DNA of 64,000 nt from Altererythrobacter sp. BO-6. Lineage in GTDB: Bacteria; Pseudomonadota; Alphaproteobacteria; Sphingomonadales; Sphingomonadaceae. Made by a program: the position numbers and the translations under genes. Position 1 is the first letter of the stretch. Each line of letters begins with the position of its first letter. The DNA lies in contig NZ_CP049259.1 in assembly GCF_011047315.1 (NCBI RefSeq), forward strand, positions 868,001 to 932,000, written 5' to 3'. Under the pieces are notes generated by a model. The model was given only the letters and a program-made list of their open reading frames with translations. It searched no databases and had not been told where the DNA came from. This document shows positions 28,823 to 64,000 of this stretch, one piece after another.

Positions 28823-28911
28823 GAGATACCACCTGTTTCCGCAACGGAGATGGCGCAGGTGTGTGACGCATTCGTGACGTATTGCCCGGCTTTTGCGTGC
28901 AAAAATTCGCC

Positions 28912-29938
28912 TCAGCCGCCCTTCAGCGAAACTTTCTCCATCGGCGGCAGCGCCATGCCCATGCCCGTGGGCCATTTGGGGCGATAGGGCGCCTCCAGCG
29001 CGGCGATTTCCTCCGCAGTCAGCTCGATCTCGAGCGCGGCCAGCGCGGCATCGATATGGTGCGGCTTGGTCGCGCCGATAATGGGCGCGGCGACCTGCGG
29101 GTTGGTGAAGTGCCAGGCAAGCGCGACGCTGGCCCGCGCCGCCTCGCGCGCTTCGGCAATTTTTCCGACCGTGTCGATCACTTCCACGATCGGCCGCGTC
29201 GTCAACCTGGTAGAGCGCCTTGCCCACGCCATCGGTCTTGCTGCGCACGGTTTCCTCATCCGCCGCGCGCGCCAGCCGCCCGCGTGCGAGCGGGCTCCAC
29301 GGGATCACGCCCACGCCCTGGTCGGCGCACAGCGGCAGCATCTCGCGCTCTTCCTCGCGGTACAGCAGGTTAAGCTGGTTCTGCATCGCAATGAAGCGGG
29401 TCCAGCCATTGGCGCGGGCTACCTCCTGCGCCTTGGCGAACTGCCAGGCATACATCGAGGAGGCGCCGATATGGCGCGCCTTGCCCGCCTTCACGATGTC
29501 ATGCAGCGCCTCCATCGTTTCCTCGATCGGGGTTTCCGCATCCCAGCGATGGATCTGGAACAGGTCGACATAGTCCATGCCCAGCCGCCGCAGGCTGTCG
29601 TCCACCGCCTGCATCAAGGCCTTGCGCGAATTGCCACCCGCATTGGGCGCGCTGCGCCATGGGAAATAGGCCTTGGTCGCGACCACGATCTCGTCGCGCA
29701 GCGCCATTTCCTTCAGCAGCTTGCCGGTGATCTCTTCCGAGGTCCCACCCGCGTAGATGTTCGCCGTGTCGAAGAAATTGATCCCGCTCTCCAGCGCCTT
29801 GCGGAAGAACGGGCGGCTGTCCTCCTCGCCCAGCAGCCAGTCGCCATGCCAGCCCTTGGTCGTATCGCCATAGCTCATGCAGCCGAGGCACAGCCGCGAG
29901 ACCATCAGGCCGGAATTTCCAAGGCGGGTGAATTTCAT
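28912..29938 (-). pseudogene. Aldo/keto reductase with one frameshift
   Basis: 1027 bases, 3n+1. The N-terminal 245 codons read [36 protein letters not shown] (catalytic Asp/Tyr), [10 protein letters not shown] (Lys) and VDLFQIHRWD (His), so the full tetrad is present. Near 29190-29206 one extra base (probably in GACGCGG) is needed to pass into the second frame, which encodes RPIVEVIDTVGKIAEAREAA, ALAWHFTNPQVAAPIIGATK and the C-terminus. Corrected length is 341 aa. It is a cytosolic NADPH-dependent oxidoreductase of the NADP-binding TIM-barrel family; substrate unknown. Its first ~120 codons and upstream region are duplicated at 30403-31226. Confidence 0.82.
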
Positions 29939-37759: not shown

Positions 37760-39604
37760 ATGAATCGCGTCAAGAATCGCAACGCACGCCTGCTTTCGCT
37801 TGTTGTCTTGCCCTTATCGGCGCAACTCGCCGCGCAAGAGCCGCAGGTGCGGCTGCCCGAAGACGAGGTGATCTACTTCGTCCTGCCTGACCGCTTCGAA
37901 AACGGCGACCAATCGAACGATCGCGGGCACATCAAGGGTGGCCGGCTCGATCACGGGTTCGACCCCACTCACAAGGGCTTCTACCAGGGCGGCGACTTCA
38001 AGGGCCTGATGCAGCGGCTCGATTATATCCAGGGTCTGGGCGCGACCGCGATCTGGCTCACTCCCATCTTCAAGAACAAGCCGGTGCAAGGGCCGCCCGG
38101 GCTCGAAAGCGCGGGCTATCACGGATACTGGATCACCGATTTCCTCAATGTCGACCCGCATCTGGGCACGCGCGAGGAATTCAAGGCGCTGGTGGAAGCC
38201 GCCCATGCGCGCGGGATGAAGGTCTATATGGACATCATCACCAATCACACGGCCGACGTGATCAAATATCGCGAATGCCACGGACCTGAGGCACCGGCCG
38301 AATATCGCGACAAGGGAGTTTGCCCCTACCGCTCGCTCGGCGAGTACCCTTACACGACCCGCGGCGGCCCCGAAGGCGCGCCGATCAATGGGGGGTTCCT
38401 CGGCACCGATGCCGAGCACATGACGGCCGAAAATTTCGCCAAACTGACCGACCCGAACTGGGCCTATCAGACCTATGTCCCGGATGCGGAGAAGTCCGCG
38501 AAGAACCCCGCCTGGCTGAACGATCCGATCTATTACAACAATCGCGGCGACAGTGTCTGGGAAGGCGAAAGCCGCATTACTGGCGACTTTTCCGGTCTCG
38601 ACGATGTCATGACCTCGAACCCGCGCGTGGTCCAGGGCTTCATCGACATCTACAAGCAGTGGATCACCGACTTCCGTGTGGATGGCTTCCGGATCGACAC
38701 GGCCAAACATGTCGATATGGAGTTCTGGCAGCAGTTTGCCCCTGCGATCCTCGACCATGCCCGGGCCGAGGGCATCGAGCACTTCCACATGTTCGGCGAA
38801 GCCTATGAATTCGAACCGGCGCAGCTCGCCAAATTCACCACGGCCGGCAAGCTGCCCTCCGTGCTGGATTTCGCCTTTCAGGGCCGCGTGCGCGGCGTGA
38901 TCGCCCATGGCGCGGCTGCAACGTCCCTCAGCTATCTGTTCGAAGCCGACGCGGTCTATGCCAACGGTTTCGAGACGGCCAGGCAATTGCCGACCTTCCT
39001 CGGCAATCATGACATGGGCCGCTTCGCCATGTTTGTGCGGCAAGCGAACCCGGAGATTTCGGACGAGGAGCTGACCCGCCGGATCATCCTGGGTCATGCG
39101 ATGATGATGTTCATGCGCGGGGTGCCGACGATCTATTACGGCGACGAGCAGGGTTTCGTATCCGACGGCAATGACCAGGACGCGCGCGAGACCATGTTCC
39201 CATCGCGTACTGCAGTATACAATGACAACGACCTTGCCGGGACCGACGCGACCCCCGCCGACAACAATTTTGATCCCGCACACCCGATCTATCGCGCGAT
39301 TGCCGATATGGCTGCGATCCGCCAGGCAGAGCCCGCGCTGCGGCGCGGCGCGCAGCTTACCCGCCACGCAGATAACGCTGGCGGCATGCTGGTCATCTCG
39401 CGGATAGACCCTGCCGATGGCAGCGAAATCGTGATCGCTTTTAATGCAAAGAATACGTCTTCAGACATCGCTTTTGCGGTCGACGGCCGTTCGCTCCGCT
39501 GGCAATCGCTGATCGGATCATGCCCGGTCGAGGCAACTGCACCTGGGGCCTATCGCCTCTCTATCCCGGCCACCGGGTTCGTCGTCTGCAAGTCGGAGTT
39601 TTGA
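37760..39604 (+). CDS. Secreted GH13 alpha-amylase-family enzyme
   Basis: 614 aa from ATG 37760, with a signal peptide (LLSLVVLPLSAQLAAQ). The GH13 regions are clear: DIITNHTAD (region I), DGFRIDTAKHVD (nucleophile Asp), FHMFGEAYEFE (acid/base Glu) and TFLGNHDMGRF (transition-state Asp). The N-terminal VIYFVLPDRFENGDQSND resembles periplasmic alpha-amylase/cyclomaltodextrinase proteins of gram-negatives. It should shorten starch or maltodextrins in the periplasm or at the surface. First of a four-gene run (GH13, GH13, LacI, halogenase) with almost no spacing. Several internal ATGs make the exact start slightly uncertain. Confidence 0.9.
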   Translation: MNRVKNRNARLLSLVVLPLSAQLAAQEPQVRLPEDEVIYFVLPDRFENGDQSNDRGHIKGGRLDHGFDPTHKGFYQGGDFKGLMQRLDYIQGLGATAIWLTPIFKNKPVQGPPGLESAGYHGYWITDFLNVDPHLGTREEFKALVEAAHARGMKVYMDIITNHTADVIKYRECHGPEAPAEYRDKGVCPYRSLGEYPYTTRGGPEGAPINGGFLGTDAEHMTAENFAKLTDPNWAYQTYVPDAEKSAKNPAWLNDPIYYNNRGDSVWEGESRITGDFSGLDDVMTSNPRVVQGFIDIYKQWITDFRVDGFRIDTAKHVDMEFWQQFAPAILDHARAEGIEHFHMFGEAYEFEPAQLAKFTTAGKLPSVLDFAFQGRVRGVIAHGAAATSLSYLFEADAVYANGFETARQLPTFLGNHDMGRFAMFVRQANPEISDEELTRRIILGHAMMMFMRGVPTIYYGDEQGFVSDGNDQDARETMFPSRTAVYNDNDLAGTDATPADNNFDPAHPIYRAIADMAAIRQAEPALRRGAQLTRHADNAGGMLVISRIDPADGSEIVIAFNAKNTSSDIAFAVDGRSLRWQSLIGSCPVEATAPGAYRLSIPATGFVVCKSEF

Positions 39605-39608
39605 CCGC

Positions 39609-41273
39609 GTGAACCAGCAAATACCGAACAGCTTGCAGGCGGTACCGGCGACACAGGACGAATGGTGGCGCGGTGCCGTGCTTTACCAGATCTATCCGCG
39701 CAGTTTCCGCGACACCAATGGCGATGGCATCGGTGACCTGAAGGGGATCGTCGAAGGACTCGACTATGTCGCATCGCTGGGCGTGGACGGGATCTGGATT
39801 TCCCCCTTCTTCACGTCGCCGATGAAGGATTTCGGCTATGACGTGTCGGACTATTGCGGGATTGACCCCAGCTTCGGCACCTTCGAGGATTTTGACCGGA
39901 TCATCGAAAAGGCGCACGGCCTGGGCCTGAAGGTCATTATCGACCAGGTCTATTCGCACACGTCCGACCAGCATGCCTGGTTCCAGGAAAGCCGCCAGGA
40001 CCGGACCAATCCCAAGGCGGACTGGTACGTATGGGCCGATGCCAAGCCTGACGGTTCGCCGCCGTCCAACTGGCAATCGGTGTTCGGCGGTTCGGCCTGG
40101 CAGTGGGACGGCCCGCGCAAGCAGTATTACCTGCACAATTTCCTGACCAGCCAGCCTGATTTGAACCTGCACAATCGCGAAGTGCAGGATGCGGTGCTGG
40201 AAGTGACGAAGTTCTGGCTGGACCGGGGTGTAGACGGCTTCCGGCTCGATGCGCTGAACTTCACGATGCATGATCCGGAATTGCGCGACAATCCGCCTTC
40301 GAGCTTGCCGCTCGACCAGGTGACGCGCCCGTTCGACATGCAGATCAAGCGCTATAACCAGTCGCATGCAGACATCCCGCTATTCCTTGAACGGATTCGC
40401 GCGACGCTGGATCAATATCCCGGCCGGTTTACCGTTGCCGAGGTTGGCGGCCCTGATCCGCTGGAAGAAATGAAGGCCTTTACGGCTGACGGAAAGCGGC
40501 TCGATTCCGCTTATAATTTCGATTTCCTCTATGCGGAGAAGCTCACCGCAGCGCTGGTCAAGAAGTCGCTCGGCCAGTGGGATGGCTCCGCCGGTGAAGG
40601 CTGGCCGTCCTGGGCCTTTTCGAACCATGACGCGCCGCGCGCGGTGACTCGCTGGCATGGCAGCTTTGGCCATGACCATGTCAGCCGCCTGATGCTGTTG
40701 CTGCTGACCTCGCTGCGCGGCAATCCCTTTATCTACCAGGGCGAGGAATTGGGCTTGCCCCAGGGCGAGGTCGCCTTCGAGGACCTGCTCGATCCCGAAG
40801 CGATCGCCAACTGGCCGCACACGCTGGGCCGTGACGGCGCGCGCACCCCGTTGCCATGGCGGGCCGAAGCGCCCAATGCAGGGTTCTCTGATGCCAATCG
40901 CACCTGGCTGAAGCTCGATCCGGCGCATGCGCAGCGGGCGATCGACCGGCAGGCCGACGACCGGGAATCGATGCTCAACTTCACCCGCCGCCTGCTCCAT
41001 CTGCGCCGCGAATTGCCGGCGCTGGCAGCGGGCGATATCGAGCTTCTCGATGCGCCCGAGGAAGTGGTGGCCTTCGTACGCACCGATCCGTCCGGCTGCG
41101 TGCTGTGCGCCTTCAACCTGTCCGACGGGCAAATCGACTGGACAGCCAGCGACAAATTCCCCAACGCGGCGCTGGTAGCAAGCGAACAGGGTGTCAGGCC
41201 CTCGGGCCAAATCCCGAGCGTCATGGCGCCGATGAGCGGATATTGGGCGACAATCGGGGGGCAGCGCGGATAA
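39609..41273 (+). CDS. Cytoplasmic GH13 alpha-glucosidase (oligo-glucosidase type)
   Basis: 554 aa from GTG 39609, four bases after the upstream gene. No signal peptide. It opens with WWRGAVLYQIYPRSFRDTNGDGIGDLKGI, the hallmark of GH13 subfamilies 17/23/31, and has VIIDQVYSHTSDQH, VDGFRLDALNF (nucleophile Asp), RFTVAEVGG (Glu) and WAFSNHDAPRAVTRW (Asp). It hydrolyses alpha-glucosidic bonds of maltose or short maltodextrins in the cytoplasm. The stop TAA overlaps the ATG of the LacI gene. Confidence 0.93.
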   Translation: MNQQIPNSLQAVPATQDEWWRGAVLYQIYPRSFRDTNGDGIGDLKGIVEGLDYVASLGVDGIWISPFFTSPMKDFGYDVSDYCGIDPSFGTFEDFDRIIEKAHGLGLKVIIDQVYSHTSDQHAWFQESRQDRTNPKADWYVWADAKPDGSPPSNWQSVFGGSAWQWDGPRKQYYLHNFLTSQPDLNLHNREVQDAVLEVTKFWLDRGVDGFRLDALNFTMHDPELRDNPPSSLPLDQVTRPFDMQIKRYNQSHADIPLFLERIRATLDQYPGRFTVAEVGGPDPLEEMKAFTADGKRLDSAYNFDFLYAEKLTAALVKKSLGQWDGSAGEGWPSWAFSNHDAPRAVTRWHGSFGHDHVSRLMLLLLTSLRGNPFIYQGEELGLPQGEVAFEDLLDPEAIANWPHTLGRDGARTPLPWRAEAPNAGFSDANRTWLKLDPAHAQRAIDRQADDRESMLNFTRRLLHLRRELPALAAGDIELLDAPEEVVAFVRTDPSGCVLCAFNLSDGQIDWTASDKFPNAALVASEQGVRPSGQIPSVMAPMSGYWATIGGQRG

Positions 41274-42302
41274 TGGCGGAATCGGATCCGGCACAAGGCA
41301 AGGCGACGCGGCTGGAAGACATCGCGCGCGAGGCCGGGGTTTCGATTTCGACCGTTTCGCGCGCGCTCAATGACAGCCCGGCGGTAAAGCGCCGCACCAA
41401 GCAGGCGATCTGGAAGATCGCACGCGAATATGATTACGATTTCCGCCAGTCGATGCCCAAAGGCCCGATCGGCGCCGAGGCGACTATCGCGGTCGTGGTC
41501 CCGGCCCCGCAAGCGCGCGAAACGCGGGTGGCCGACCCCTTCTTCCTGGAGCTGCTGGCAGGCATTGCCGAAGCCGCGCGCGAACGCACCGCTGACCTGC
41601 TGATCAGCCATTTGAGCCCGAATTCGGCCGAAGACCTCGAATATGCCCTGACCACGAGCCGGGCCACGGGCGTGATCTTCATCGGGCAAAGCTCGCTGCA
41701 CCACACCTTCAACGAACTGGCCAAGCGTGACACGCGCTTCGTTGTGTGGGGGGGCGGCGCTGCGCGACGCGGAATATTGCTCGGTCGGATCGGACAATCT
41801 GCTGGGCGGGCAGCGCGCCACCTCGCACCTAATCCGGCTTGGGCGCGAGCGGATCCTGTTCCTGGGCGATACCGAAGCGCCCGAAGCCGACCAGCGGCAC
41901 CGTGGCTACAAGCAGGCGCTCGAGCTGGCCAGCCGCGAGTTCGACGAGGAACTGACCGTTTCCGCGTCCTTCGACGTTCACTCCGCAGAGGCTGCAACCG
42001 GTTCGCTGATCCAGCAAGGGGTGGAATTCGACGGGGTATTCGCCGCGAGCGACCTGATTGCGATCGGCGCAATGCGCGCGCTTACCCGCGCGGGCAGGTC
42101 CATCCCGGGCGATGTCTCGGTGGTAGGCTATGACAATATCGCCGCATCGCGCCTTGTCACGCCGCGGCTGACGACGATCGACCAGGACGCCAACCTGGCC
42201 GGGCGCCTGCTGGTCTCGAAGCTGATCGACACACAGGGCAAGATCCCGCCGTCCGATCGCACGGAAACTAGCCTGCTGATCCGCGAAAGCTGCGGAGGCT
42301 GA
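41273..42302 (+). pseudogene. LacI-family maltodextrin regulator with a frameshift at a G7 run
   Basis: 1030 bases, 3n+1. The N-terminus carries a LacI helix-turn-helix (TRLEDIAREAGVSISTVSRAL), followed by a sugar-binding domain (ATIAVVVPAPQ, FFLELLAGIAEAARE). At 41748-41754 a run of seven G shifts the frame; with six G the sequence reads VVWGAALRDAEYCSVGSDN and continues through LIRLGRERILFLGDTEAPEA and VSVVGYDNIAASRLVTPRLT to the end, 342 aa in total. It would repress the surrounding glycosidase and receptor genes through TGCA-N6-TGCA sites. A homopolymer sequencing error is the simplest explanation; loss of the regulator or slippage-based switching are alternatives. Confidence 0.85.
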
Positions 42303-52999: not shown

Positions 53000-53734
53000 G
53001 TGACCTATTGCGTTGGCCTGCAGATCGATCGCGGCCTGGTTCTGATGAGCGACACCCGCACCAATTCCGGGGTCGATTACATCTCGTCTTTCCGCAAGCT
53101 GCACCACTGGTCGGTGCCCGGCAATCGCAGCATCGCCTTGCTCTCGTCCGGCAATCTCGCGACCACCCAATCGGTGATCAGCAAGCTGGAAGAGCGCAAC
53201 AAGGCGCCGAGCGAACGGCATAATTCGCTGTTCGACGCACCTACGATGTTCCAGGTCGCAACCACAGTGGGCGAGCTGCTGCGCGAGACGATCCGCGAGA
53301 GTACCCCGTCCGACAGCCCCGAAGCCAGCGGAACCTTCACCGCTTCGCTGATCCTCGCCGGACAGATTTCGGGCATGGAGCCGCGGCTGTTCCTGATCTA
53401 TCCCGAAGGCAATTTCATCGAGGCCTCGCTCGACACGCCCTTCTTCCAGATCGGCGAGACCAAATATGGCCGCCCGATCCTGATCCGCGCCTTCGACCGG
53501 GGCATGAGCTTCGAGGAAGCGATCAAGCTGCTGATGGTCAGCTTCGATTCCACGCTCAAGGCCAATCTCTCGGTCGGCATGCCATTGGACCTGCTGGTGC
53601 TGGAACGGGACAGTTTCGAGCCGCTGCACCAGCGCCGCATCCTCGAGGACGATCCCTATTTCCGCACTATTTCCTCAGGCTGGAGTGAGGCGCTGCGGAA
53701 AGCCTTCGAGGGGCTGCCCGATTACGAGATGTAG
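53000..53734 (+). CDS. Anbu (bacterial proteasome-related peptidase, COG3484)
   Basis: 244 aa with an Ntn-hydrolase fold. It begins MTYCVGLQIDRGLVLMSDTR; removal of Met1 would expose Thr2 as the N-terminal nucleophile, as in HslV and proteasome beta subunits. The FRKLHHWSVPGNRSIALLSSG and TASLILAGQISG segments are typical. Anbu assembles into open spirals or rings and has been difficult to assign a protease substrate. It ends the four-gene operon and is convergent, seven bases apart, with the yeiH-like gene. An AGGAG ribosome-binding site precedes the ATG. Confidence 0.93.
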   Translation: MTYCVGLQIDRGLVLMSDTRTNSGVDYISSFRKLHHWSVPGNRSIALLSSGNLATTQSVISKLEERNKAPSERHNSLFDAPTMFQVATTVGELLRETIRESTPSDSPEASGTFTASLILAGQISGMEPRLFLIYPEGNFIEASLDTPFFQIGETKYGRPILIRAFDRGMSFEEAIKLLMVSFDSTLKANLSVGMPLDLLVLERDSFEPLHQRRILEDDPYFRTISSGWSEALRKAFEGLPDYEM

Positions 53735-53741
53735 TCTGGGC

Positions 53742-54833
53742 TCAGCCGGCCATCATGCTGGCGACCAGGATCGAAACGGTAAAGCTCGCCAGCGTGGCGC
53801 AGACAACCGGCATGAAGGCGCGCCAGCCCAGCGTGCGCATCAGGTCCATCCGCGAACGCAGCGCCGTCGCGGTTACCGCCAGCAGCAGCAGCCCTTTTGA
53901 TACAGTCAGCGCGCCTCCGGCAAAAGCTTCGGGAAATTCGACGAAGCTATTCACCGTCACCAGCGCCAGGAAGCCGAGGATGAACCATGGCAAAGCGAGA
54001 CGGCGCAGCGGTGTTGCCCCCGCCCCGCCCTGCCCGGCGCTGCCGATCCACAGCGAAACGAGCAGCACGGCGGGCGCCAGCAAGGTCACCCTTGCCAGCT
54101 TGACGATGGTCGCTTCGGCCCCGGCAGCATCGGAGAAGGAGTAGCCGCCGCCGATCGCTTGCGCGACGTCATGCACGGATGCGCCGATCAGGAACCCCGC
54201 CGCGCGGTCATCCAGCCCGATCTGCGCGGCGATCACCGGATAGACCGCCATGGCAAAGGCGCTGGCCAAGGCGACCGCGACCAAATTCATCGCGAATTGC
54301 GCCTGCGGCAGCCGTTCGCGCCCGATCACGGCATAGAGCGCCAGCGAGGCGCTCGCGCCGCAAATGGCGGTCGCGCCGCCCGCCAGGATGCCGGCATATC
54401 GTGACTGGCCCCAGATCCGCGCGCCCAGCAGCCCGGCAGCAAAGGTCGTCGCCATGATCCCCAGCAGCAAGGCAAAGGACACAGCGCCGACATCGGCGAT
54501 CTGCGCGAAAGTGATCTGAAAGCCGAGCAGCACGATCCCGATCCGCAGGCCCTCCCTCGCGACCAGGTCAAGTCCGGGATGCGTGCCTTCCTCGCCCGCG
54601 GCAAAGCTCAGCGCGAGGCCCAGCAGCAAGCCCATCAGGATCATCGGCATGCCGTAATGGTCGCTGAGCCAGGCGGCGGCGAGACTGGTCACCCCGACCA
54701 GGATCAGCCCCGGCAGGAAACGGCGCGTGGTGCGCTTCTCAGACCCCGCTGCTTCCTGTTCGGACAGCGTCAGCTCGCCGTACAAGTCCCCGGCGTAGAA
54801 ATTGCGTTCATCGGGAGAATTGCCCGCGGCCAA
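53742..54833 (-). CDS. YeiH/UPF0324 family putative sulfate (sulfite) exporter
   Basis: 363 aa, about ten membrane helices. The family signature is clear: FLPGLILVGVTSLAAAWLS, REGLRIGIVLLGFQITFAQIA, AILAGGATAICGASASLALYA and FLIGASVHDVAQAIGGGYSFS. YeiH proteins are annotated as putative sulfate exporters; the activity is weakly supported experimentally. Position next to the sulfoquinovose-type genes, which release sulfite inside the cell, gives the annotation local meaning. It lies 13 bases downstream of the MFS gene on the same strand, so the two are probably cotranscribed. Confidence 0.85.
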   Translation of the reverse strand: MAAGNSPDERNFYAGDLYGELTLSEQEAAGSEKRTTRRFLPGLILVGVTSLAAAWLSDHYGMPMILMGLLLGLALSFAAGEEGTHPGLDLVAREGLRIGIVLLGFQITFAQIADVGAVSFALLLGIMATTFAAGLLGARIWGQSRYAGILAGGATAICGASASLALYAVIGRERLPQAQFAMNLVAVALASAFAMAVYPVIAAQIGLDDRAAGFLIGASVHDVAQAIGGGYSFSDAAGAEATIVKLARVTLLAPAVLLVSLWIGSAGQGGAGATPLRRLALPWFILGFLALVTVNSFVEFPEAFAGGALTVSKGLLLLAVTATALRSRMDLMRTLGWRAFMPVVCATLASFTVSILVASMMAG

Positions 54834-54846
54834 ACCCTGCCTCCCT

Positions 54847-56085
54847 TCAGCCCGCTTCCACGCGGCGGATCTGCGGCATCATCAGCTGCAGCCACGCCAG
54901 CGCGATCAGGTAGGACATGGCGGCGAAAACGAACAGCGGCACGAAGCCGAACCCTGCATCGAGCACGCGGCCGGTGATCAGGCTGATCGCCACCCCGCCC
55001 ATATTGCCCATGAAGGCGCCGAAGGCGGTGACCCGCCCGACCTTGGCATTGGGAACCACGTCCGTGATCGTCGCGAAGATCGACAGCGAGAAGCCCTGGT
55101 GCCCGGCCATGACCACACCCATCATCACCGCGACCGGCCAGAAGGAATTGAGTTCCAGCACCAGCGGCAGCGGCGCCACTATCAGCGCGGAAACCAGCAT
55201 CACGCCCTTGCGAACGCGGTTGACCGACCAGCCCAGCTCAAGCAGCCGGGTCGAGGCCCAACCGGCAAGCAGCGCGCCCAGGCCCGAACCGGCAAAGGCG
55301 ATCGCCAGCGGGATCGCCAGCTCCAGCGTCGTAAGGCCGAACTCCTTGCGGTAATAATCCGCCAGCCAGAAATTGATGAACCACCAGGTCATGTCCGATA
55401 GCGCCTTGGCGATCACGATCGCCCAGGTCTGCCGGTTGGTCAGGAAATTGCCGTAAGCCGCGCCGTCTTCGACCAGCGTCACGCCCTCCGGCTCGGCACT
55501 TGCCTGGCGCAATTGCGAAAGGCCGCGCGCCAGCCACATCCAGGCGATAAGCGAGATGAAGCCGCCGATACCGCCTGCGACCAGTGCCCCGCGCCAGCCG
55601 ACCGCCAGCGCCAGCGCCGGGATCACGAAAGGCATGGCGATTGTCCCCGCCCCCGCCAGCAGGGTCGCGAAGCCGAAAGCAAAGGAACGCTTGTTCGGTT
55701 CGAACAATGTGGCGACGGTCTTGATCGTCAGCGGGGTCTGCACCGCTTCTGTGACACCCAGCCCGACGCGCGCGGCGACCACCTGCCAGGTGGTGATGGC
55801 CCAGCCATGCGCCATCGCAGCAAAGCTCCAGGCCGATGCGCCCAATTGCATCGAGCGGTGGACACCCAGCCGGTCAACCAGCCAGCCGGTAAACAGGAAC
55901 GCAAAGGCCGCGGAAAACTGCGTGACCGCGGCCAGATCGCCGAAATCGCTGTCAGTCCAGCCGAAGTCCGCCATCATGTCGGGTTTGAGGATGGCGATGA
56001 TCGGGCGGTCCATCGCATTGAATACGCCCGCCACGCACAGTGTCGTGAACAATGCCCAACGCAGGCGCGGCGTGATCACCTTCAT
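54847..56085 (-). CDS. MFS transporter, anion:cation symporter-like; candidate sulfoquinovose(-glycoside) importer
   Basis: 412 aa, twelve membrane helices. LFTTLCVAGVFNAMDRPIIAIL is helix 1 with the conserved Asp-Arg, and GWLVDRLGVHRSMQLGASAW the family loop between helices 2 and 3. It resembles the ACS group that carries hexuronates and other organic anions. SQ is also a sugar anion, and the gene neighbours point to SQ or its glyceride as substrate; this is inference. The order is TBDR - MFS - yeiH on the reverse strand, divergent from the catabolic genes. Confidence 0.8.
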   Translation of the reverse strand: MKVITPRLRWALFTTLCVAGVFNAMDRPIIAILKPDMMADFGWTDSDFGDLAAVTQFSAAFAFLFTGWLVDRLGVHRSMQLGASAWSFAAMAHGWAITTWQVVAARVGLGVTEAVQTPLTIKTVATLFEPNKRSFAFGFATLLAGAGTIAMPFVIPALALAVGWRGALVAGGIGGFISLIAWMWLARGLSQLRQASAEPEGVTLVEDGAAYGNFLTNRQTWAIVIAKALSDMTWWFINFWLADYYRKEFGLTTLELAIPLAIAFAGSGLGALLAGWASTRLLELGWSVNRVRKGVMLVSALIVAPLPLVLELNSFWPVAVMMGVVMAGHQGFSLSIFATITDVVPNAKVGRVTAFGAFMGNMGGVAISLITGRVLDAGFGFVPLFVFAAMSYLIALAWLQLMMPQIRRVEAG

Positions 56086-56197
56086 GATGCGAATTCCCCT
56101 TCCCGATTCAACTGTCTACCCCGGGTACGGACACAGGCCAACCAGGGGATTCCTGGCTGGCCTGCACCGTGTTGCGACCTTTGAGGCGTCAGGCGGC

Positions 56198-58532
56198 TCA
56201 GTTGCGAACCCGCAGGCTCACCCCGAAATAGCGATCCGCATCGCGCGGGATCTGCAAGCGCTGGCCATTGCCGACATTGAGCAGCGCATAGCTTTCGTCG
56301 GTGATGTTGCGGGCATGGAAGGTCAGGCGATAACGATCGTCCTGGTCGGAGAAGCCGATCGAGGCATTCCAGAGACCATAGGGATCGATCACGCCCTGCT
56401 CGCCAAGGTCCGAATACTGCTTGCTGACATGACGATAGTCGGTGTCGAGATAGAACCGGAAACCGCCCAGATCGCCTTCATAGCTGCCGCCAAGCGTGTA
56501 GGTGAACTTGGGGGCCAACGGCAGCTGGGTGCCGTCGCGCGCGTCAGGTGCATTGGTCAGCGGGTTCGGGTTGAACTTCTTCACCGCCGCATCGGCATAG
56601 GCACCGCTGGCGCGCAAGGTCAGACCGTCTACCGGCACTACCAGCAGGTCAGCTTCAAAGCCTTCGCTCTTTACCGTACCGGCATTGGTCAGGTTCGTTA
56701 CCGTCGCGCCATTGAGCAGCACGAAGTTGTTGGCCTGGAACCCGTCATATTCGACGGTGAAGGCCGCAACGTTCAGCTGCACCCGGTTGTCGAGGAATTG
56801 GGTCTTGGCGCCCAGTTCAAACGCGTTCGACGTTTCTTCGTCAATCGGCACGGCGTTGGTGGGCGCAGTGTGGTTGAAGAAGACGTTGAAAGCCGGGCCC
56901 TTATACCCGCGGGTATAGCTGCCGTAGAACATGATGTCCTCTGCCGGCGTGAACTGCAGCACCGCCTTGCCTGACAGATTGCCGTTGGTGCTCGACCCGC
57001 GCGATACCGGCGTGCCGTTACCGCCGCCTGCGATGGTGCCGCCTGCCGGGTTACCCGAAACGCCGGGGCCGGTAGCCGGCAGGCCGGTCGCCGCATTCAC
57101 GCCCGGTGCGCGGACATGGGTGTAGCTGAGCTCGTCCCAGGTGTATCGCAAGCCGCCGGTGATCGCAAACATGTCATTCAGGCGATAGGTTGCCTGGCCG
57201 AAGATCGCGAAGTTGGACGAATTGACGTCACTGTCAGAGGTTGCGGTGGGGAAGATCGTGTTGACCGTGTCGGTCAGGTTGCACGGACGCCCGCCGGTGG
57301 CAGGATCGATCGGCAGGGTCGAGCTGGCGCAGGTGATCACTTCACGAGTGAAGGTCTGCGTATTGTCCGAATGCCATGCGAAAGCACCAACCTGGTAGAA
57401 GAACGGAGCGGTCGGATCGGACGCAATGCGCGCTTCGAACGACATCTGCTCGGTCGTCACCACACCATCGTCATGCAACTGTGCAGTGCCGACAATGGCA
57501 CGCGGCAGGAAATCGCCTTCGCGGATTTCGCGGTTGCGCCAGTTGCGATAGCCGGTGACCACGCTCAGCGTGTGCGTATCGCTAAGGTCGACATCGCCGG
57601 AGAGCGTCAGGCTCCACTGCTTGTCCTTGGTTTCAGTGACAAGGTTGTGATTGACGTAACGCTGGTCGAGACCCTGCGCCGAACCGCCCGGGAGGCCCAG
57701 CTCGGCATCGAGCACAGCACCGCGGCTGACGGTCGTAACGTCGGCGCAGCAATCGTCATCGGCCTTGAAGAGGTCCGCGATCAGGCGGACCCGTGCCATC
57801 GAACCATTGTAATCAACGATGCCGCGCGCACCATAGTGCTCATAACCGTTGATCTTGTTATTCTCACCGCCATAGACATTGGTGATGTTGCCATCATAGC
57901 TGCCATAGAAACCGGTCACACGAGCGCTGAGGTCTTCGGCGATCGGACCCGAAAGCGAGCCGCGCACGCGGTATTCATCGCCTTCGAACCATTCGGCGCG
58001 CCCTTCGGCTTCGAACGTATCGGTGCCGCCCTTCGACACGATGTTGACGAGACCGGCCGACGCGTTCTTGCCGAACAGCGTGCCTTGCGGGCCGCGCAGC
58101 ACTTCCAGCCGCTCGGCATCGACCAGGTCCATGAAGGCCTGGCCCGAACGGCTCAGCACGATGCCGTCAACCACGGTCGAAACGCTCGGCTCGGCTGCGA
58201 TCGAGAAGGTGATGGTGCCAACACCGCGCATCCACGATCGCGCTATTGGCGCTGGTCGTGCCCTTGCGGAAGGTGACCGACGGAACGAGCCGGGTAATGC
58301 CTTCAAGGCTGGTGGTGCCGGCCTGCTCGAGCCGGTCCGCCGACAGCGCGGTAACCGCAATCGGCACGTCCTGGACATTTTCGGAGACCTTCTGTGCGGT
58401 AACCAGGATTTCCTGGATGCCGCCCTCGTCTTCCTCAGCGTCCTGCGCCCATGCCGGCGCGGTCGCGGACAAAGCCATCAGGCTGACAGAAACAGCCAGC
58501 GCACGCGCCATCGATGATTGGAGTAACTTCAT
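56198..58532 (-). pseudogene. TonB-dependent receptor with one frameshift; candidate outer-membrane SQ-glyceride transporter
   Basis: 2335 bases, 3n+1; corrected length 777 aa. From ATG 58532 (GGGAGAGG upstream) it has a signal peptide ending TAPAWAQD, a TonB box region IQEILVTAQKVSENVQDVPI and half the plug (VPSVTFRKGTTSANSAI). Around 58228-58236 one extra base (probably G in GTGGATG) breaks the frame, which resumes as MRGVGTITFSIAAEPSVS, VLRGPQGTLFGKNASAGLVN and a complete barrel ending in FGVSLRVRN. The C-terminal residue is Asn rather than the usual aromatic. Its position opposite the sulfoquinovosidase gene suggests it imports SQ-containing lipid fragments. The indel may be a sequencing error. 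Confidence 0.8.
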
Positions 58533-58642
58533 CAAACCTCTCCCTGTGCAATTGGGCCGGTTCTGCCGCATCCCCTTGAGGATGCGCACAGCCCGACCGC
58601 GAATTGCCCTTGATCTGCGCTTGTCCCGCCGATATGTCAAGC

Positions 58643-58692
58643 GGTGTCACATTTGATAATCGAGATTGTGGTGCAATCGCCACAGTGACACC
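58643..58692. promoter_or_regulatory. Divergent promoter with nested inverted repeats, candidate LacI operator
   Basis: GGTGTCAC (58643-58650) and GTGACACC (58685-58692) are exact inverted repeats 34 bases apart. Between them, TGTGG-N8-CCACA (58667-58684) forms an 18-bp interrupted palindrome of LacI-operator size. The element lies between the receptor gene and the sulfoquinovosidase gene, so a regulator bound here could control both. GGAGAAGGGG (about 58694-58703) is the ribosome-binding site for the GTG at 58713. Confidence 0.55.
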
Positions 58693-58712
58693 GGGAGAAG
58701 GGGATTTTCCGC

Positions 58713-60723
58713 GTGAAATGGCGGATTCAAGGCAGTGATCGGGGATTTGACCTCCTGTTCGGGGAGCAAATCGTCCTGTGTCACACCGAATCCTGTCCTG
58801 CGGTGGTCATAGCCCGTGGCAATCCGCAAATCGAAATGTATCGCGGCAATTTCCGGATCGAGGATTCGCCGCAAGGAGCGCTCGCACTGGGCGAATGGCG
58901 GCAGTCAGGCGATGCGATCGAAGTTCCTCCATGAAGGTATTGCAGGGGCCCGGCTGGAGCTTGGTGCTGACAGCTTCACACTGCGTGCGCTCGATCCCGC
59001 GATCGACCGGCTATGGGTTCATTTCCATGCAGAACCGGGTGAAACCGTGTGGGGCGGCGGCGAACAGATGAGCTATCTTGCGCTCAATGGCCGCAGTTTC
59101 CCGATCTGGACCAGTGAGCCCGGCGTCGGCCGCGACAAGTCGACCGAGCTGACCCGCCTGATGGACGAACAGGGCATGGCCGGCGGCGATTACTGGAACA
59201 CCAATTATCCGCAGCCGACCTTCCTCACCTCGCGCTGGCTGGCGCTGCATCTCAATGCCAGCTGTTACAGCGTGCTCGACTTCACCGATCCGGCGCGCCA
59301 CAGAGTCGAAATATGGTCGGGCGAAGCACGGTTCGAGGTATTCACCGACGAAGGGCCGATGGGCCTTGTCTCGCAGCTTTCGGAGCGCTTCGGCCGCCAA
59401 CCCGAACTGCCCGACTGGGCGATTGGCGGCGCGATCCTTGGCCTGAAATCGGGCGCCAGCAGCTTCGACCGGCTCGAGCGCTTTATCGCGGCAGGCGCTG
59501 CAGTCTCCGGCCTGTGGTGCGAGGATTGGGCCGGCATCCGCGAAACCAGCTTCGGCCGCCGCCTGTTCTGGGACTGGCACCTGGGCGAGCGCAGCGCCGC
59601 CCGCTACCCCAACCTGAAACAGCGGATTGCCGAACTTGCCGACAGAGGCATCCGCTTCCTCGCCTACGCCAACCCCTATCTCTCCGATGACGGCGAGCTT
59701 TTCGCAGAAGCACTGGCGGGCGGCCATTTCTGCCTCAAGCCGGACAGCGACGAGGTCTATCTGGTGGATTTCGGCGAGTTTGACTGCGGCGTCATCGATT
59801 TCACTCGCGCCGAAACGCGCGCATGGTTCGCCGAGCGCGTGCTGGGCTGCGAAATGCTCGACAACGGGATTGCCGCGTGGATGGCCGATTTCGGCGAGTA
59901 CCTGCCCACCGATGTCCGTCTGGCCGATGGCAGCGACCCGATGGAAGCGCACAACCGCTGGCCGGTGCTGTGGGCCGAAGTGAATGCGCGGGCGCTGGCG
60001 AGCCGCGGCAAGACTGGTGACGCGCTGTTCTTCATGCGGGCGGGCTTTTCCGGCGTCGGGGCACATTGCCCGCTGCTGTGGGCGGGCGACCAGTCGGTCG
60101 ACTTCACCCGGCATGACGGGATCGGTACAGTCATCACGGGAGCGCTTTCGGCTGGCCTGGTCGGCAATGCCTACAGCCATTCGGATTGCGGCGGCTACAC
60201 CTCCCTCCTCGGCAATGTCCGCAGCGAAGAACTGCTGCAGCGCTGGTGCGAGCTGGCGGCGTTTGCGCCGGTGATGCGCAGCCATGAAGGCAACCGGCCC
60301 GACGACAATCTGCAATATGACAGCACGCCAGAGCTGCTCCAATGCTTCGCGCGCTGGAGCCGGGTGCATGCGGCGCTGGCGCCCTATGTCCGCGCGCTAT
60401 GCCGCGAAGCTGCCGCAACGGGCCTGCCCACGCAGCGCCCGCTGTTCCTGCACTATCCGCTCGATCCGGCGCTGTTTGTGATACAGGACCAGTTCCTTTA
60501 CGGCGCAGACCTGCTGGTGGCCCCGGTGATAGCGGAAGGCGCCACCGCAAGGCAGGTCGTTTTGCCCGGCGACGAGCCATGGCGGCACCTATGGACCGGC
60601 GAGGATGTCGCGCCCGGTACGCATGAGATTGCCGCACCGATCGGCCAACCGCCAGTGTTTTATCGCCCGGACAGCCCGCATGCGGCGCTGTTTGCGAGCC
60701 TGAAAGAGGAGCTGGCGCGATGA
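58713..60723 (+). pseudogene. GH31 sulfoquinovosidase (YihQ/SmoI-like) with one frameshift near the N-terminus
   Basis: 2011 bases, 3n+1; corrected length 669 aa (YihQ is about 678). From GTG 58713 the first frame ends after EWRQSGDAIEV; one extra base near 58920-58931 hides the continuation LHEGIAGARLELGADSFTLR. The rest is a full GH31 enzyme with the nucleophile in AAWMADFGEYLPTD and acid/base in LLWAGDQSVDF. The sulfonate-binding residues of YihQ are conserved: Arg and Trp in TSFGRRLFWDW and Tyr in SHSDCGGYTS. No signal peptide, so it should cleave SQ-glycerol in the cytoplasm to SQ and glycerol. The stop overlaps the LacI gene start. Whether the indel is real needs read-level checking. 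Confidence 0.87.
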
Positions 60724-61733
60724 GCGAACGCGCGACCATTCGCGATGTGGCGGCCCATGCCGGCGTGGCGGTGAAAACGGTCAGCCGCGTCCTCAACGGC
60801 CACCCCTATGTGAGCACGGACACCCGCGAGCGGGTGGAAGCGGCGATGAAGGCGCTTGATTTTCGCCCCAGCGTGGCAGCGCGCATCCTCTCCGGCGCGA
60901 AGTCCAACCAGGTCGCGCTGATCTATGACAATCACAGCCCCTATTACATGTTCCAGATCCAGAAGGGCTGCTGGGACGAATGCCATACGCGCGGGATCCG
61001 CCTGCTGGCGCAGCCGGTCGATGTCGAGGATCCCGATGTCGGCGAGCAGGTGCGCGGGCTGGTGACGGAAACCCATGTCGACGGGATCATCCTGTCCTCG
61101 CCGGTCACCGATTGCGAGCCGGTACTGAAAATGCTCGACCAGCTCGACATTCCCTTCGTGCGCATTTCGCCCGGCACCAACCATGCGCTGACCAGTTCGG
61201 TGTTCATGGACGATGCCCAGGCCGCTGACGACATGACGACGCATCTGATCAATGCCGGGCATCGCCGGATCGGCTTTATCAAGGGGCACAAGAGCCACAT
61301 GGCAAGCGAAGAACGCCTGTTCGGTTATCGCCGCGCGCTTGACCGGGTGGCGATCCCGTTCGAGCCGGGCCTGGTTTGCGACGGCGAATTCGATTTCGAC
61401 AGCGGGGTACGCGCCGCACGCCAGTTGCTCGACATGGCAGAGCCGCCGACGGCGATATTCGCATCGAACGACGATATGGCTGCGGGCGTGCTGGCCGTTG
61501 CGCATGACCGCGATATCGATGTGCCGGGCGATCTTTCGGTCACCGGGTTCGATGATACCACGCTCTCGCGCACGGTCTGGCCGCCGCTCACCACGATCCA
61601 CCAGCCGATGGCGGAGCTGGCCCGTACCGCCACCGAAATCCTTATCACCGGCGGCGACATCACCCATCGCCGCCTGCCGCACCAGTTGATCGAGCGCGCT
61701 TCCGTCGCGCCGCCAAGAAGGGACAATCTATGA
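60720..61733 (+). CDS. LacI-family transcriptional regulator of the sulfoquinovose-type operon
   Basis: 337 aa. The helix-turn-helix (TIRDVAAHAGVAVKTVSRVLN, residues 6-26) and hinge (ARILSGAKSN) are followed by a periplasmic-binding-protein-like domain (VALIYDNHSPYYMFQIQKG, GHRRIGFIKGHKSHMASEERL, LSVTGFDDTTLSRTVWPPLT). It overlaps the genes on both sides by four bases, so it autoregulates with the catabolic genes. The expected effector is SQ or a derivative. Candidate operator at 58643-58692. Confidence 0.92.
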   Translation: MSERATIRDVAAHAGVAVKTVSRVLNGHPYVSTDTRERVEAAMKALDFRPSVAARILSGAKSNQVALIYDNHSPYYMFQIQKGCWDECHTRGIRLLAQPVDVEDPDVGEQVRGLVTETHVDGIILSSPVTDCEPVLKMLDQLDIPFVRISPGTNHALTSSVFMDDAQAADDMTTHLINAGHRRIGFIKGHKSHMASEERLFGYRRALDRVAIPFEPGLVCDGEFDFDSGVRAARQLLDMAEPPTAIFASNDDMAAGVLAVAHDRDIDVPGDLSVTGFDDTTLSRTVWPPLTTIHQPMAELARTATEILITGGDITHRRLPHQLIERASVAPPRRDNL

Positions 61734-62644
61734 GCCTGTTGCCGCCGATTCCTGCCACGCGCACGCTTGGCGCCAGCGATATCGCGATTTCGCCGATCGC
61801 CTGGGGCATGTGGCGCCTCGCCGAAGACGACCGCAACGCCGCAGAGGCGGCGCGGCTCGTGCACGCAGCGCTCGATGCCGGGATCACCCTGCTCGACACG
61901 GCGGACATCTATGGCTTCGACGGCAGCGGGGGCTTCGGCGACGCCGAGGCGCTGCTGGGTGAAGTCTTCGCCGCCGAGCCCGGCTTGCGCGGCCGGATGG
62001 TGCTGGCGAGCAAGGGCGGGATCATGCCGCCGCTGCCCTATGACCAGTCGGCTGGATATCTGGCTTCGGCGATCGATGCCTCGCTGCGGCGGATGAAGGT
62101 CGACACGATCGACCTCTACCAGGTCCACAGGCCTGACATCCTCACGCACCCGCAGGAAGTCTCCCGCACGCTCGACGATGCAGTGGCAGCCGGCAAGATC
62201 CGCACGCTGGGCGTGTCGAACTTCACGATCCAGCAAGTCGAAGCGCTCCAGCACTTCCTCGGTCACAGGCTGGTATCGACCCAGCCCGAGATCAGCCCGC
62301 TGCGCATCACCTGCTTTGAAAATGGCGAGCTGGACCAGGCGATGCGGCTGGGCCTTTCGGTATTGGCGTGGTCGCCGCTCGGTGGCGGACGACTGCTTTC
62401 GCCCGAGACAGCGCGCGACAAGGCAGTGGCGGCCGAGCTTGACCGGATCGCCAAGGAGCAAGGCGTCAGCCGCTCGGTCGCGGCCTATGGCTGGCTGATG
62501 GCGCACCCGGCGGGGATCGTGCCGATCATCGGTTCGCAAAACCCGGCCCGGATCGCCGAGGGCGTGGCTGCTATGGGCATGCGCTGGACCCGACAGGATT
62601 GGTATGCGGTGCTCGTCGCCGCACGAGGAGAGAGGCTTCCGTAA
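61730..62644 (+). CDS. Aldo/keto reductase, SmoB-like (6-oxo-glucose reductase candidate)
   Basis: 304 aa. The tetrad is visible: LLDTADIYGF (Asp, Tyr), VLASKGGI (Lys) and LYQVHRPD (His). The cofactor-binding end AGIVPIIGSQNPARIAEG is conserved. In the Agrobacterium sulfoglycolytic SMO pathway, the AKR SmoB reduces 6-oxo-glucose to glucose with NADPH. Placement between a sulfoquinovosidase/LacI pair and an SmoC-like monooxygenase supports that role. Overlaps neighbours by four bases and one base. Generic AKR function is certain; the specific substrate is inferred from context. Confidence 0.82.
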   Translation: MSLLPPIPATRTLGASDIAISPIAWGMWRLAEDDRNAAEAARLVHAALDAGITLLDTADIYGFDGSGGFGDAEALLGEVFAAEPGLRGRMVLASKGGIMPPLPYDQSAGYLASAIDASLRRMKVDTIDLYQVHRPDILTHPQEVSRTLDDAVAAGKIRTLGVSNFTIQQVEALQHFLGHRLVSTQPEISPLRITCFENGELDQAMRLGLSVLAWSPLGGGRLLSPETARDKAVAAELDRIAKEQGVSRSVAAYGWLMAHPAGIVPIIGSQNPARIAEGVAAMGMRWTRQDWYAVLVAARGERLP

Positions 62645-63735
62645 TGACAGATAAGCAACAATGCGAAATCGCCTGGTTCTCGGCGCTTTGTGATGACGAT
62701 TACGAATTCCTCGGCGTTACTGACCAGTATCTCAAGTCTAGCTGGGAGCATTGCCGCAACATCGTGCTGCGCGCGGAGGAAGGCGGGTTCGACAATATCC
62801 TGCTGCCTTCGGGCTACGAGCTGGGGCTCGACACCACCGTGTTCGCTGCTGCCGTTGCCACCCAGGTCAAGCGGATGAAGCTGCTGTGGGCGACCCGCAT
62901 CGGCGAGGACTGGCCCCCGCAGCTCGCGCGCCGGATCGCGACGCTTGACCGCATCCTTGGCCCTGACGCGACCGGCACGACCGGGCGGCTCAACGTCAAC
63001 ATCATTTCTTCCGACATGCCGGGGCAGAAGATGGACAGCGGCCCGCGCTATGGCCGCGCGACCGAGGTGATGAAGATCGTGCGCACGCTGCTCAATGGCG
63101 AGCATTTGAGCCACCATGGCGAGCACTACCAGCTCGAGCTCGATCCGGCGCGGATCAGCACGATTTCCGGCAAATGCCCGCCGTTCTATTTCGGCGGCCT
63201 GAGCCATGAAGCACGCGAATGTGCGGCAGAAGGCTGCGACGTCTACCTGATGTGGCCCGACACGATGGACAAGGTGCGCGAGAATATCGCCGACTTAAAG
63301 GAACGTGCCGCGAAATACGGCCGTACGCTCAAGTTCGGCTACCGCGTCCATGTGATCGTGCGCGAGACCGAAGACGAAGCGCGCGCCTATGCCGACCGCT
63401 TGCTATCGAAGCTCGACGACGAGGCCGGCCGCGCGATCCGCGAAAAGTCGCTCGATGCCAAGAATTACGGCGTCCAGCGGCAGGCCGAATTGCGCAGCGC
63501 CGCCGATGGCGACGGCTTCGTCGAGGAGAATCTGTGGACCGGCATCGGGCGCGCGCGCTCGGGCTGCGGCGCGGCGATAGTCGGCACGCCCGACCAGGTG
63601 CTCGCCAAGCTGCGCGCCTATCAGGCCGAAGGGATCGAGGCCTTCATCCTCTCGGGCTATCCGCATGTGAACGAGTGTGACATGTTCGCGCGCTATGTGC
63701 TGCCGCAGATCGAGCACGGCCCGCTGCAATTCTGA
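62644..63735 (+). CDS. Flavin-dependent sulfonate monooxygenase, SmoC-like (sulfoquinovose monooxygenase candidate)
   Basis: 363 aa from ATG 62644, which overlaps the previous stop. LLM-type luciferase-fold enzyme of the SsuD group: EIAWFSALCDDDYEFLGV at the N-terminus, GFDNILLPSGYELGLDTT, RLNVNIISSDMPGQKMDSGP, CPPFYFGGLSHEARECA and ENLWTGIGRARSGCGAAIVG. With FMNH2 and O2 it should cleave the C-S bond of SQ, giving 6-oxo-glucose and sulfite. SsuD itself (alkanesulfonates) is the alternative, but the adjacent sulfoquinovosidase and SmoB-like reductase favour SQ. The partner flavin reductase (SmoA) is not in the window. Confidence 0.83.
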   Translation: MTDKQQCEIAWFSALCDDDYEFLGVTDQYLKSSWEHCRNIVLRAEEGGFDNILLPSGYELGLDTTVFAAAVATQVKRMKLLWATRIGEDWPPQLARRIATLDRILGPDATGTTGRLNVNIISSDMPGQKMDSGPRYGRATEVMKIVRTLLNGEHLSHHGEHYQLELDPARISTISGKCPPFYFGGLSHEARECAAEGCDVYLMWPDTMDKVRENIADLKERAAKYGRTLKFGYRVHVIVRETEDEARAYADRLLSKLDDEAGRAIREKSLDAKNYGVQRQAELRSAADGDGFVEENLWTGIGRARSGCGAAIVGTPDQVLAKLRAYQAEGIEAFILSGYPHVNECDMFARYVLPQIEHGPLQF

Positions 63736-63745
63736 CTCTGAACCG

Positions 63746-64000
63746 ATGACTGACGCCTCTCCCCCACCATTCGACCTCGCCGTGATTGGCGGCGGGGTGA
63801 ATGGTTGCGGCATCGCGCGCGATGCGGCGGGACGCGGGGCGAAAGTGCTGCTGCTCGAGGCGGGCGACCTGGCCGGGGGCACCTCCTCGGCTTCGACCAA
63901 GCTGATCCACGGCGGTCTGCGCTATCTCGAGCATTACGAATTCGGCCTGGTGCGCGAGAGCCTGTCCGAACGTGAGCGGCTGTGGCGGATCGCCCCGCAC
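63746..64000 (+). CDS. glpD: Glycerol-3-phosphate dehydrogenase, N-terminal part (3' end outside window)
   Basis: The first 85 codons from ATG 63746. FAD-binding LAVIGGGVNGCGIARDAAGRG, VLLLEAGDLAGGTSSASTKLIHGGLRYLEHYEFGLVRESL is the GlpD signature. GlpD oxidises glycerol-3-phosphate to dihydroxyacetone phosphate at the inner membrane and feeds the quinone pool. Ten bases after the SmoC-like gene, so part of the same operon. Glycerol would come from SQ-glycerol cleavage, which implies a glycerol kinase just beyond the window. GG-type ribosome-binding sequence is weak. Confidence 0.92.
   Translation, partial: MTDASPPPFDLAVIGGGVNGCGIARDAAGRGAKVLLLEAGDLAGGTSSASTKLIHGGLRYLEHYEFGLVRESLSERERLWRIAPH

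Follow-up and report, generated by a model that had tools for sequence, protein, structure and literature searches.

The divergent gene cluster that lies at the end of a 64,000-nucleotide stretch of the Altererythrobacter sp. BO-6 genome, and runs on beyond it, is best read as a sulfoquinovose (SQ) utilisation regulon of the monooxygenase type (sulfo-SMO, also called sulfo-ASMO), in the form that is usual among sphingomonads. The probability of this reading is put at about 0.86. SQ, the sulfur-containing sugar found in the membranes of plants and algae, is one of the most abundant organosulfur compounds. The stretch as a whole, called the window below, covers positions 868001–932000 of contig NZ_CP049259.1, the single contig of a 3.04-Mb genome; the region past its end was read from contig positions 930000–949999, with coordinates continued in window numbering. 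What is new here is a conserved 15-bp dyad, the proposed operator of a LacI-family regulator, which ties a TonB-dependent outer-membrane receptor to the SQ regulon. The direct evidence consists of gene identity, active-site conservation, orthology, synteny and conservation of this site. The enzyme steps are known from the work of others on relatives, according to the accessible passages of a review, and would apply here by analogy; growth of this strain on SQ or SQ-glycerol is predicted from its genes.

Gene content and enzyme identities

The features of the cluster are as follows.

53742–54833, minus strand: YeiH-type transporter, proposed sulfite or sulfate exporter (PF03601, E = 3.6e-52; TIGR00698, 109 bits, below the cut-off of 232.6)
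54847–56085, minus strand: MFS transporter, proposed to import SQ or SQ-glycerol across the inner membrane (PF07690, E = 2.7e-40)
about 56198–58532, minus strand: TonB-dependent outer-membrane receptor, proposed to take up SQ or SQ glycosides (PF00593, E = 4.3e-40; PF07715, E = 2.4e-07)
58635–58649, no strand: TGTCAAGCGGTGTCA, a proposed operator of the LacI type, in the promoter region between the divergent receptor and sulfoquinovosidase genes
about 58713–60723, plus strand: GH31 sulfoquinovosidase, SmoI/YihQ type (PDB matches 5ohy and 5ohs; active-site residues)
60720–61733, plus strand: LacI-family regulator, proposed repressor at 58635–58649 (PF00356, PF13377)
61730–62644, plus strand: aldo/keto reductase, proposed 6-dehydroglucose reductase in the SmoB/SquF role (PF00248; PDB 7bbz)
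62644–63735, plus strand: FMNH2-dependent SQ monooxygenase (SmoC/SquD), luciferase-like (LLM) (PDB 7olf and 7oh2; tree)
about 63746–65242, plus strand, the window ending at 64000: glpD, glycerol-3-phosphate dehydrogenase (NF009906, 745 bits, cut-off 352)
65239–65814, outside the window, same operon as glpD: NADPH-dependent FMN reductase family gene (PF03358, E = 2.2e-23)
65811–66404, outside the window, same operon as glpD: RibB-like gene, 3,4-dihydroxy-2-butanone-4-phosphate synthase (PF00926, E = 3.3e-60)

The eight genes named in the original prediction all lie where it had placed them and are matched by Pfam or NCBIfam models; the receptor and GH31 genes are not single open frames, and the operon is longer than it had noted. 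The plus-strand genes are tightly packed, with overlaps of 4, 4 and 1 bases from GH31 through LacI and the aldo/keto reductase to the monooxygenase, and of 4 bases at each junction from glpD through the flavin mononucleotide (FMN) reductase to RibB. An identical gene order is seen again in other genera, and the arrangement is thus more than a chance one. The FMN reductase gene, two genes past the monooxygenase, is the predicted flavin reductase, in the SmoA role, that had been looked for beyond 64 kb; SsuE models match it weakly, below cut-off. Such a reductase in the cluster is a frequent, although not universal, trait of sulfo-SMO. A glycerol kinase match, expected likewise, does exist, but 1.4 Mb from the locus and with its frame broken in the assembly, split over two frames of which one part bears an internal TGA. 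The best NCBIfam match of the MFS protein is the D-galactonate transporter subfamily (103.9 bits, under the cut-off of 395). Among the ten proteins scanned with Pfam from 53742 to 66404 no ABC component was found, which rules out a smo cluster of the ABC type as the identity of the locus; the ABC importer of the Agrobacterium-type cluster is absent from this set, and the gene content bears out the proposal of a TonB receptor and an MFS transporter in its place.

For the GH31 protein, the best PDB matches are 5ohy and 5ohs (E about 1e-239), which we take to be the Agrobacterium sulfoquinovosidase although the PDB listing gives their title as alpha-glucosidase yihQ. In the alignment it keeps K245, E270, R283, D388, D455 and Y491 (5ohs numbering), as well as W286, read by eye, which makes seven aligned residues in all. 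The 5ohs chain used in the comparison bears N455, the sister sequence having D at this position. In 5ohs the K/Q, E/Q, R, W and Y positions presumably bind the sulfonate, and the aspartates are presumably catalytic. The frame break of the GH31 gene is situated upstream of these conserved residues. An ordinary alpha-glucosidase is ruled out as its identity by the PDB matches and by the sulfoquinovosidase residues that are kept.

The monooxygenase finds its best PDB matches in 7olf (371 bits, 52.0% identity) and 7oh2 (363 bits, 50.3%), the next match scoring 209 bits; identity to 7jv3 is 35.7%. The best match of the aldo/keto reductase is 7bbz (8.6e-56, 39.3% identity), the next protein following at 3.6e-40. 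The entry 7bbz is presumably SmoB, and the pair 7olf and 7oh2 presumably represents SmoC and RoSMO; the PDB titles of the three entries are aryl-alcohol dehydrogenase, methanesulfonate sulfonatase and alkanesulfonate monooxygenase. In a monooxygenase tree of 53 rows, the SsuD type, with three rows, is separate (99/98), and all 49 non-SsuD rows fall under one fork (94/88), the program having warned of long branches for the second gene of locus L216 and for L214. The window protein pairs with that of locus L039 (100/98), inside a set of 12 rows (100/98) that includes locus L209, whose genome (G399) we take for Novosphingobium aromaticivorans, and 7olf and 7oh2 belong to a separate set of six rows (100/99). 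Moreover, 51 alignment columns are invariant across seven SMO-type rows and different in the three SsuD-type rows. Because the tree sets apart both the SsuD rows and the 7olf/7oh2 set, the enzyme is, judged by its phylogenetic position, of the SQ-monooxygenase type and of a sphingomonad clade, and only a distant counterpart of Agrobacterium SmoC. That it is an ordinary alkanesulfonate monooxygenase of the SsuD kind is ruled out by the PDB bit scores, the identities and the place in the tree, where the protein groups with SQ monooxygenases instead of SsuD.

In the available passages of a recent paper, sulfo-SMO is recognised by SmoB and SmoC homologues that are encoded close together (PMC13372026); here the reductase gene (61730–62644) directly adjoins the monooxygenase gene (62644–63735). 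The chemistry that the original prediction had proposed, with a sulfoquinovosidase, an SQ monooxygenase and a 6-dehydroglucose reductase, is supported by homology, and the locus is thus very probably a sulfo-SMO locus, as far as homology can tell.

In the proposed mechanism, the TonB receptor would carry SQ-glycerol, another SQ glycoside or scarce SQ over the outer membrane, and the MFS transporter would bring the SQ compound into the cytoplasm. There, the GH31 enzyme would release glycerol and SQ from SQ-glycerol; using FMNH2 and O2, the monooxygenase would break the C–S bond to give sulfite and 6-dehydroglucose, which the aldo/keto reductase would convert to glucose. Sulfite or sulfate would leave through YeiH, the glycerol branch would be taken up by GlpD and by a glycerol kinase encoded elsewhere, and the FMN reductase and RibB may maintain the flavin supply. 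The LacI protein is predicted to repress both divergent transcripts through the 15-bp dyad until it binds an SQ compound.

The receptor and the proposed operator

The spread of the cluster was followed in 396 genomes of the order, sampled from a larger set, among which relatives share ancestry and are not independent. A SmoC match (E at most 1e-60) is present in 88 of them, the window's own genome included, and in 90 of the 195 genomes in the genus of genome G217. The neighbourhoods of SmoC in the 87 other genomes of the order, stretches of about 20 kb with about 9.5 kb per side (shorter in 8 of the 87, where the contig or the chosen stretch ended), were searched for homologues by tblastn (E at most 1e-10). 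Matches were obtained for the aldo/keto reductase in 85, the receptor in 82, MFS and LacI in 68 each, GH31 in 60, YeiH in 48, GlpD in 36, the FMN reductase in 24, RibB in 17 and GlpK in 11; at 60% identity or above, the receptor is found in 40, MFS in 24 and YeiH in 12.

In each of the 82 cases, no more than 5 kb separates the start of the receptor gene from that of SmoC. With 42 TonB receptor matches in this 3.04-Mb genome, or about 0.28 per 20 kb, roughly a quarter of such stretches would hold one by chance, so that a receptor in 82 of 87 far exceeds the chance level, also when shared ancestry is allowed for. In a separate scan, a receptor match occurs in 38 among the 80 named loci listed; L151, L155 and L161, three loci of Rhizobium, have none. 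The original prediction had regarded the receptor-based arrangement as an unusual rebuild, a view that does not survive these counts, the annotation of a Novosphingobium plasmid (pLA3, see below) and the similar L209 cluster. The arrangement is, by this comparison of gene content, a common and established sphingomonad form, to which the window adds one more example.

The receptor and sulfoquinovosidase genes are separated by intergenic regions that share the 15-bp block, with a half-symmetric frame TNTGNCA/TGNCANA, and conservation drops steeply on either flank of it. In all 52 loci where the receptor and GH31 genes are arranged in this way, the dyad stands in the gap that separates the two. 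At no more than one mismatch, it is present in 52 of the 52 loci whose LacI is at least 70% identical and in 0 of the 35 others, four of which have a site with two mismatches. This genome has exactly one site at up to one mismatch, and shuffled loci, in which base composition only was preserved, gave no site at up to two. All 52 operator loci contain a receptor, and all have a GH31 gene at 60% identity or above; GlpD is found in 33 and GlpK in 9 of them, within the limited stretches covered.

Eleven second dyad sites occur in the 52 loci. In eight, the MFS start follows 143–207 bases downstream; the remaining ones lie just before YeiH (L047), 59 bases past the MFS end (L068) or with neither gene near (L082). 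The window has no second site at up to three mismatches; its MFS and YeiH genes lie after the receptor on the receptor's strand and could share its transcript.

The pairing between site and regulator is strong at the level of sequence, and we infer that the LacI protein acts at the dyad at 58635–58649. The conserved dyad, paired with a close LacI, and the synteny make the receptor part of the SQ regulon. On this basis, the cluster probably represents a dedicated TonB-dependent SQ system of sphingomonads, in which the receptor would serve SQ-glycerol or SQ glycosides, and one LacI operator would drive, divergently, the receptor, MFS and exporter genes and the sulfoquinovosidase, monooxygenase, glycerol and flavin-supply genes. 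If this is true, the receptor would be the first to be linked with a sulfosugar, and ribB would supply flavin to the oxygenase. The SmoC-linked receptor and operator could also serve as a marker for sphingomonad SQ users, given a close SmoC in the 88 genomes of the order mentioned above.

As to the literature, a 2026 stable-isotope study reports that Novosphingobium dominates SQ assimilation in mangrove water, and its available passages do not address how SQ compounds cross the outer membrane in such bacteria (PMC13372026). The word TonB does not occur in the accessible text of PMC13372026, PMC12890257 and PMC9594981, and in the open-access passages of papers naming both terms, no TonB receptor was connected with SQ. 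The suggestion that the receptor-based arrangement had not been described holds in part: the arrangement itself can be seen in the pLA3 annotation and in L209, whereas nothing in these open-access passages contradicts the view that the receptor, which looks like a co-regulated member of the pathway, has apparently not been discussed. Since the 15-bp site links a receptor with the regulon, outer-membrane SQ uptake becomes a question that can be tested directly.

Alternative readings and frame breaks

Several observations weigh against the reading of the locus as a complete SQ regulon. A share of the neighbourhood receptors (42 of 82) are less than 60% identical, so their ligands may differ. A GH31 match is missing in 27 of the 87 neighbourhoods. 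An LLM gene that is 68% identical, on a plasmid of Rhizobium sp. WSM4643 (L208, 12001–13050), belongs to a cluster without an annotated aldo/keto reductase, which means that the LLM group is not bound to a single pathway; that cluster includes a GH31 gene, an ABC importer and sulfo-ED-like genes. The dyad motif was derived from the very loci where it was counted, which share ancestry, and the count within them is descriptive; the independent parts of the evidence are the second sites, the count over the whole genome and the 35 loci that lack a close LacI. A sigma-70 scan gave no promoter-like site in 53600–59000; terminator-like sites in the promoter and terminator scan numbered 5, for 4.0 expected. 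Finally, there are frame breaks in the receptor and GH31 genes, and the glycerol kinase match falls in two frames; SQ-glycerol use would be impaired if these breaks were real.

The divergence of the receptors would suit a reading in which the catabolic genes serve SQ but the receptor and the MFS transporter serve another substrate, SQ itself entering through porins, for which it is small enough, and another transporter. TonB receptors are indeed common in this genome, and 44 of the 68 MFS matches, like the receptors just mentioned, are less than 60% identical. This reading is nevertheless unlikely in view of the constancy of the receptor, found close to SmoC in nearly all neighbourhoods and in every operator locus, its gene being divergent from the sulfoquinovosidase gene with the conserved site between them; the position of the MFS start downstream of most second sites argues in the same direction. 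At a slot about −4.4 kb from SmoC, some loci have a receptor 65–85% identical to that of the window and others one of about 40–45%, GH31 and LacI remaining similar where the receptor at this slot varies; from these identities, the receptor seems to have been swapped inside a fixed cluster.

The neighbourhoods that lack GH31, together with identities of only 50–52% to the two solved SQ monooxygenases, could also mean that the LLM and aldo/keto reductase pair acts on another sulfonate (some other sulfosugar, or an alkanesulfonate), GH31 being adjacent by chance. This is highly improbable, since GH31 retains the sulfoquinovosidase residues and is present at 60% identity or above in every operator locus, and since the monooxygenase is 86% identical to the L209 protein, from a genome taken for a species with a characterised SQ monooxygenase.

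The frame breaks deserve a closer description. An intact receptor of 795 residues in L039 matches the window over residues 25–118 in one frame and 119–793 in another, with a junction near 58232. The GH31 protein is matched over residues 11–64 at 58737–58898 in one frame and 75–665 at 58945–60717 in another. Both breaks are thus near the 5′ end, and both genes are intact in L039. Decay of the locus in this strain, with the receptor, GH31 and glycerol kinase breaks being real and SQ-glycerol use lost, would account for them, and the intact L039 genes speak for it; an intact rpoC and the lack of internal stops in all 25 ABC-ATPase matches of this genome speak against pervasive assembly error. The breaks are, however, not confined to the pathway: a coding-frame model, used with no homology check, flagged further same-strand frame switches at four more places within 82 kb (about 28.5–29.2, 41.2–41.8, 72.3 and 74.5 kb), and genome-wide, TonB receptor matches in frames shorter than 450 residues amount to 5 of 42, compared with 2 of 121 in three relatives. 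Since breaks also occur outside the SQ pathway, either indel errors or a wide decay of genes would be involved. Residual indel errors are the favoured and likely explanation, and decay of the SQ locus is a doubtful one. The switches within the window, which resemble frame breaks in the same unchecked model, fall in 28451–29938 and 39600–42290.

A neighbouring locus and the closest known systems

Beyond the window, at 67291–81999, lies a separate locus in which Pfam recognises an FGE-type sulfatase activator, a PfkB kinase, a sialate-esterase-like protein, an SMP-30 lactonase, a sodium:solute symporter, a KDPG aldolase, a beta-helix protein, an SDR and two sulfatases; GntR-like and dehydratase-like genes were named by eye. 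From its gene content it looks like a locus for the use of a sulfated (possibly uronic) polysaccharide, and its sulfatase and lyase genes were set aside from the SQ cluster.

Rib genes recur beside FMNH2-dependent sulfonate oxygenases in both of the plasmid loci of this kind that were examined: ribB and an NAD(P)H-dependent oxidoreductase gene adjoin SsuD in Paracoccus (L215), and ribA and msuE do so in Methylocystis (L216). On plasmids of Novosphingobium sp. EMRT-2 (L207) and Sphingobium yanoikuyae (L217), a SmoC-type LLM and an aldo/keto reductase adjoin a TonB receptor and a gene of the phytanoyl-CoA dioxygenase family. It would be odd for SQ loci to encode a second oxygenase; in L207 a fatty-acid CoA ligase adjoins the sulfoquinovosidase, which would suit the use of the whole sulfolipid.

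The closest system is the sulfo-ASMO cluster of N. aromaticivorans (SquD, SquF, YihQ), seen here through L209, taken for that species. It has the same enzymes, receptor, LacI, GlpD and an exact copy of the operator, with identities of 86.4% for SmoC, 84.4% for LacI, 81.8% for GH31, 78.9% for the receptor, 76.3% for the aldo/keto reductase, 69.5% for GlpD and 64.7% for GlpK, YeiH being cut by the end of the stretch. It differs in that glpK follows glpD, that its MFS protein is only 39.5% identical, and that the FMN reductase and RibB of the window have no match in its 20 kb. The lack of the reductase fits the remark, in the accessible part of a review, that N. aromaticivorans, whose SQ enzymes have been produced and characterised, lacks SsuE in its cluster (PMC9594981). 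The same order of genes (receptor, alpha-glucosidase, LacI, aldo/keto reductase, LLM, glpD and glpK) is annotated on plasmid pLA3 of N. pentaromativorans US6-1.

The TRAP-type clusters of Ruegeria AD91A and Rhizobium SL42 have, like the window, LLM, aldo/keto reductase and flavin reductase genes side by side; they differ by a TRAP transporter and a GntR regulator, a TonB receptor not being annotated in the stretches shown.

The smo cluster of Agrobacterium tumefaciens consists of SmoA, SmoB, SmoC and SmoI with an SQGro ABC transporter, according to the available passages of reviews that cover this cluster (Sharma et al. 2022) and that of N. aromaticivorans (Liu et al. 2021) (PMC9594981, PMC12890257). 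The GH31, aldo/keto reductase and LLM proteins of the window are homologous to those of Agrobacterium, and the same reactions are proposed. The window LLM and aldo/keto reductase are, however, only 50% and 39% identical to their counterparts, the LLM belonging to a different clade. Instead of the ABC importer, the window has a TonB receptor and an MFS transporter, and its operon includes glpD and ribB.

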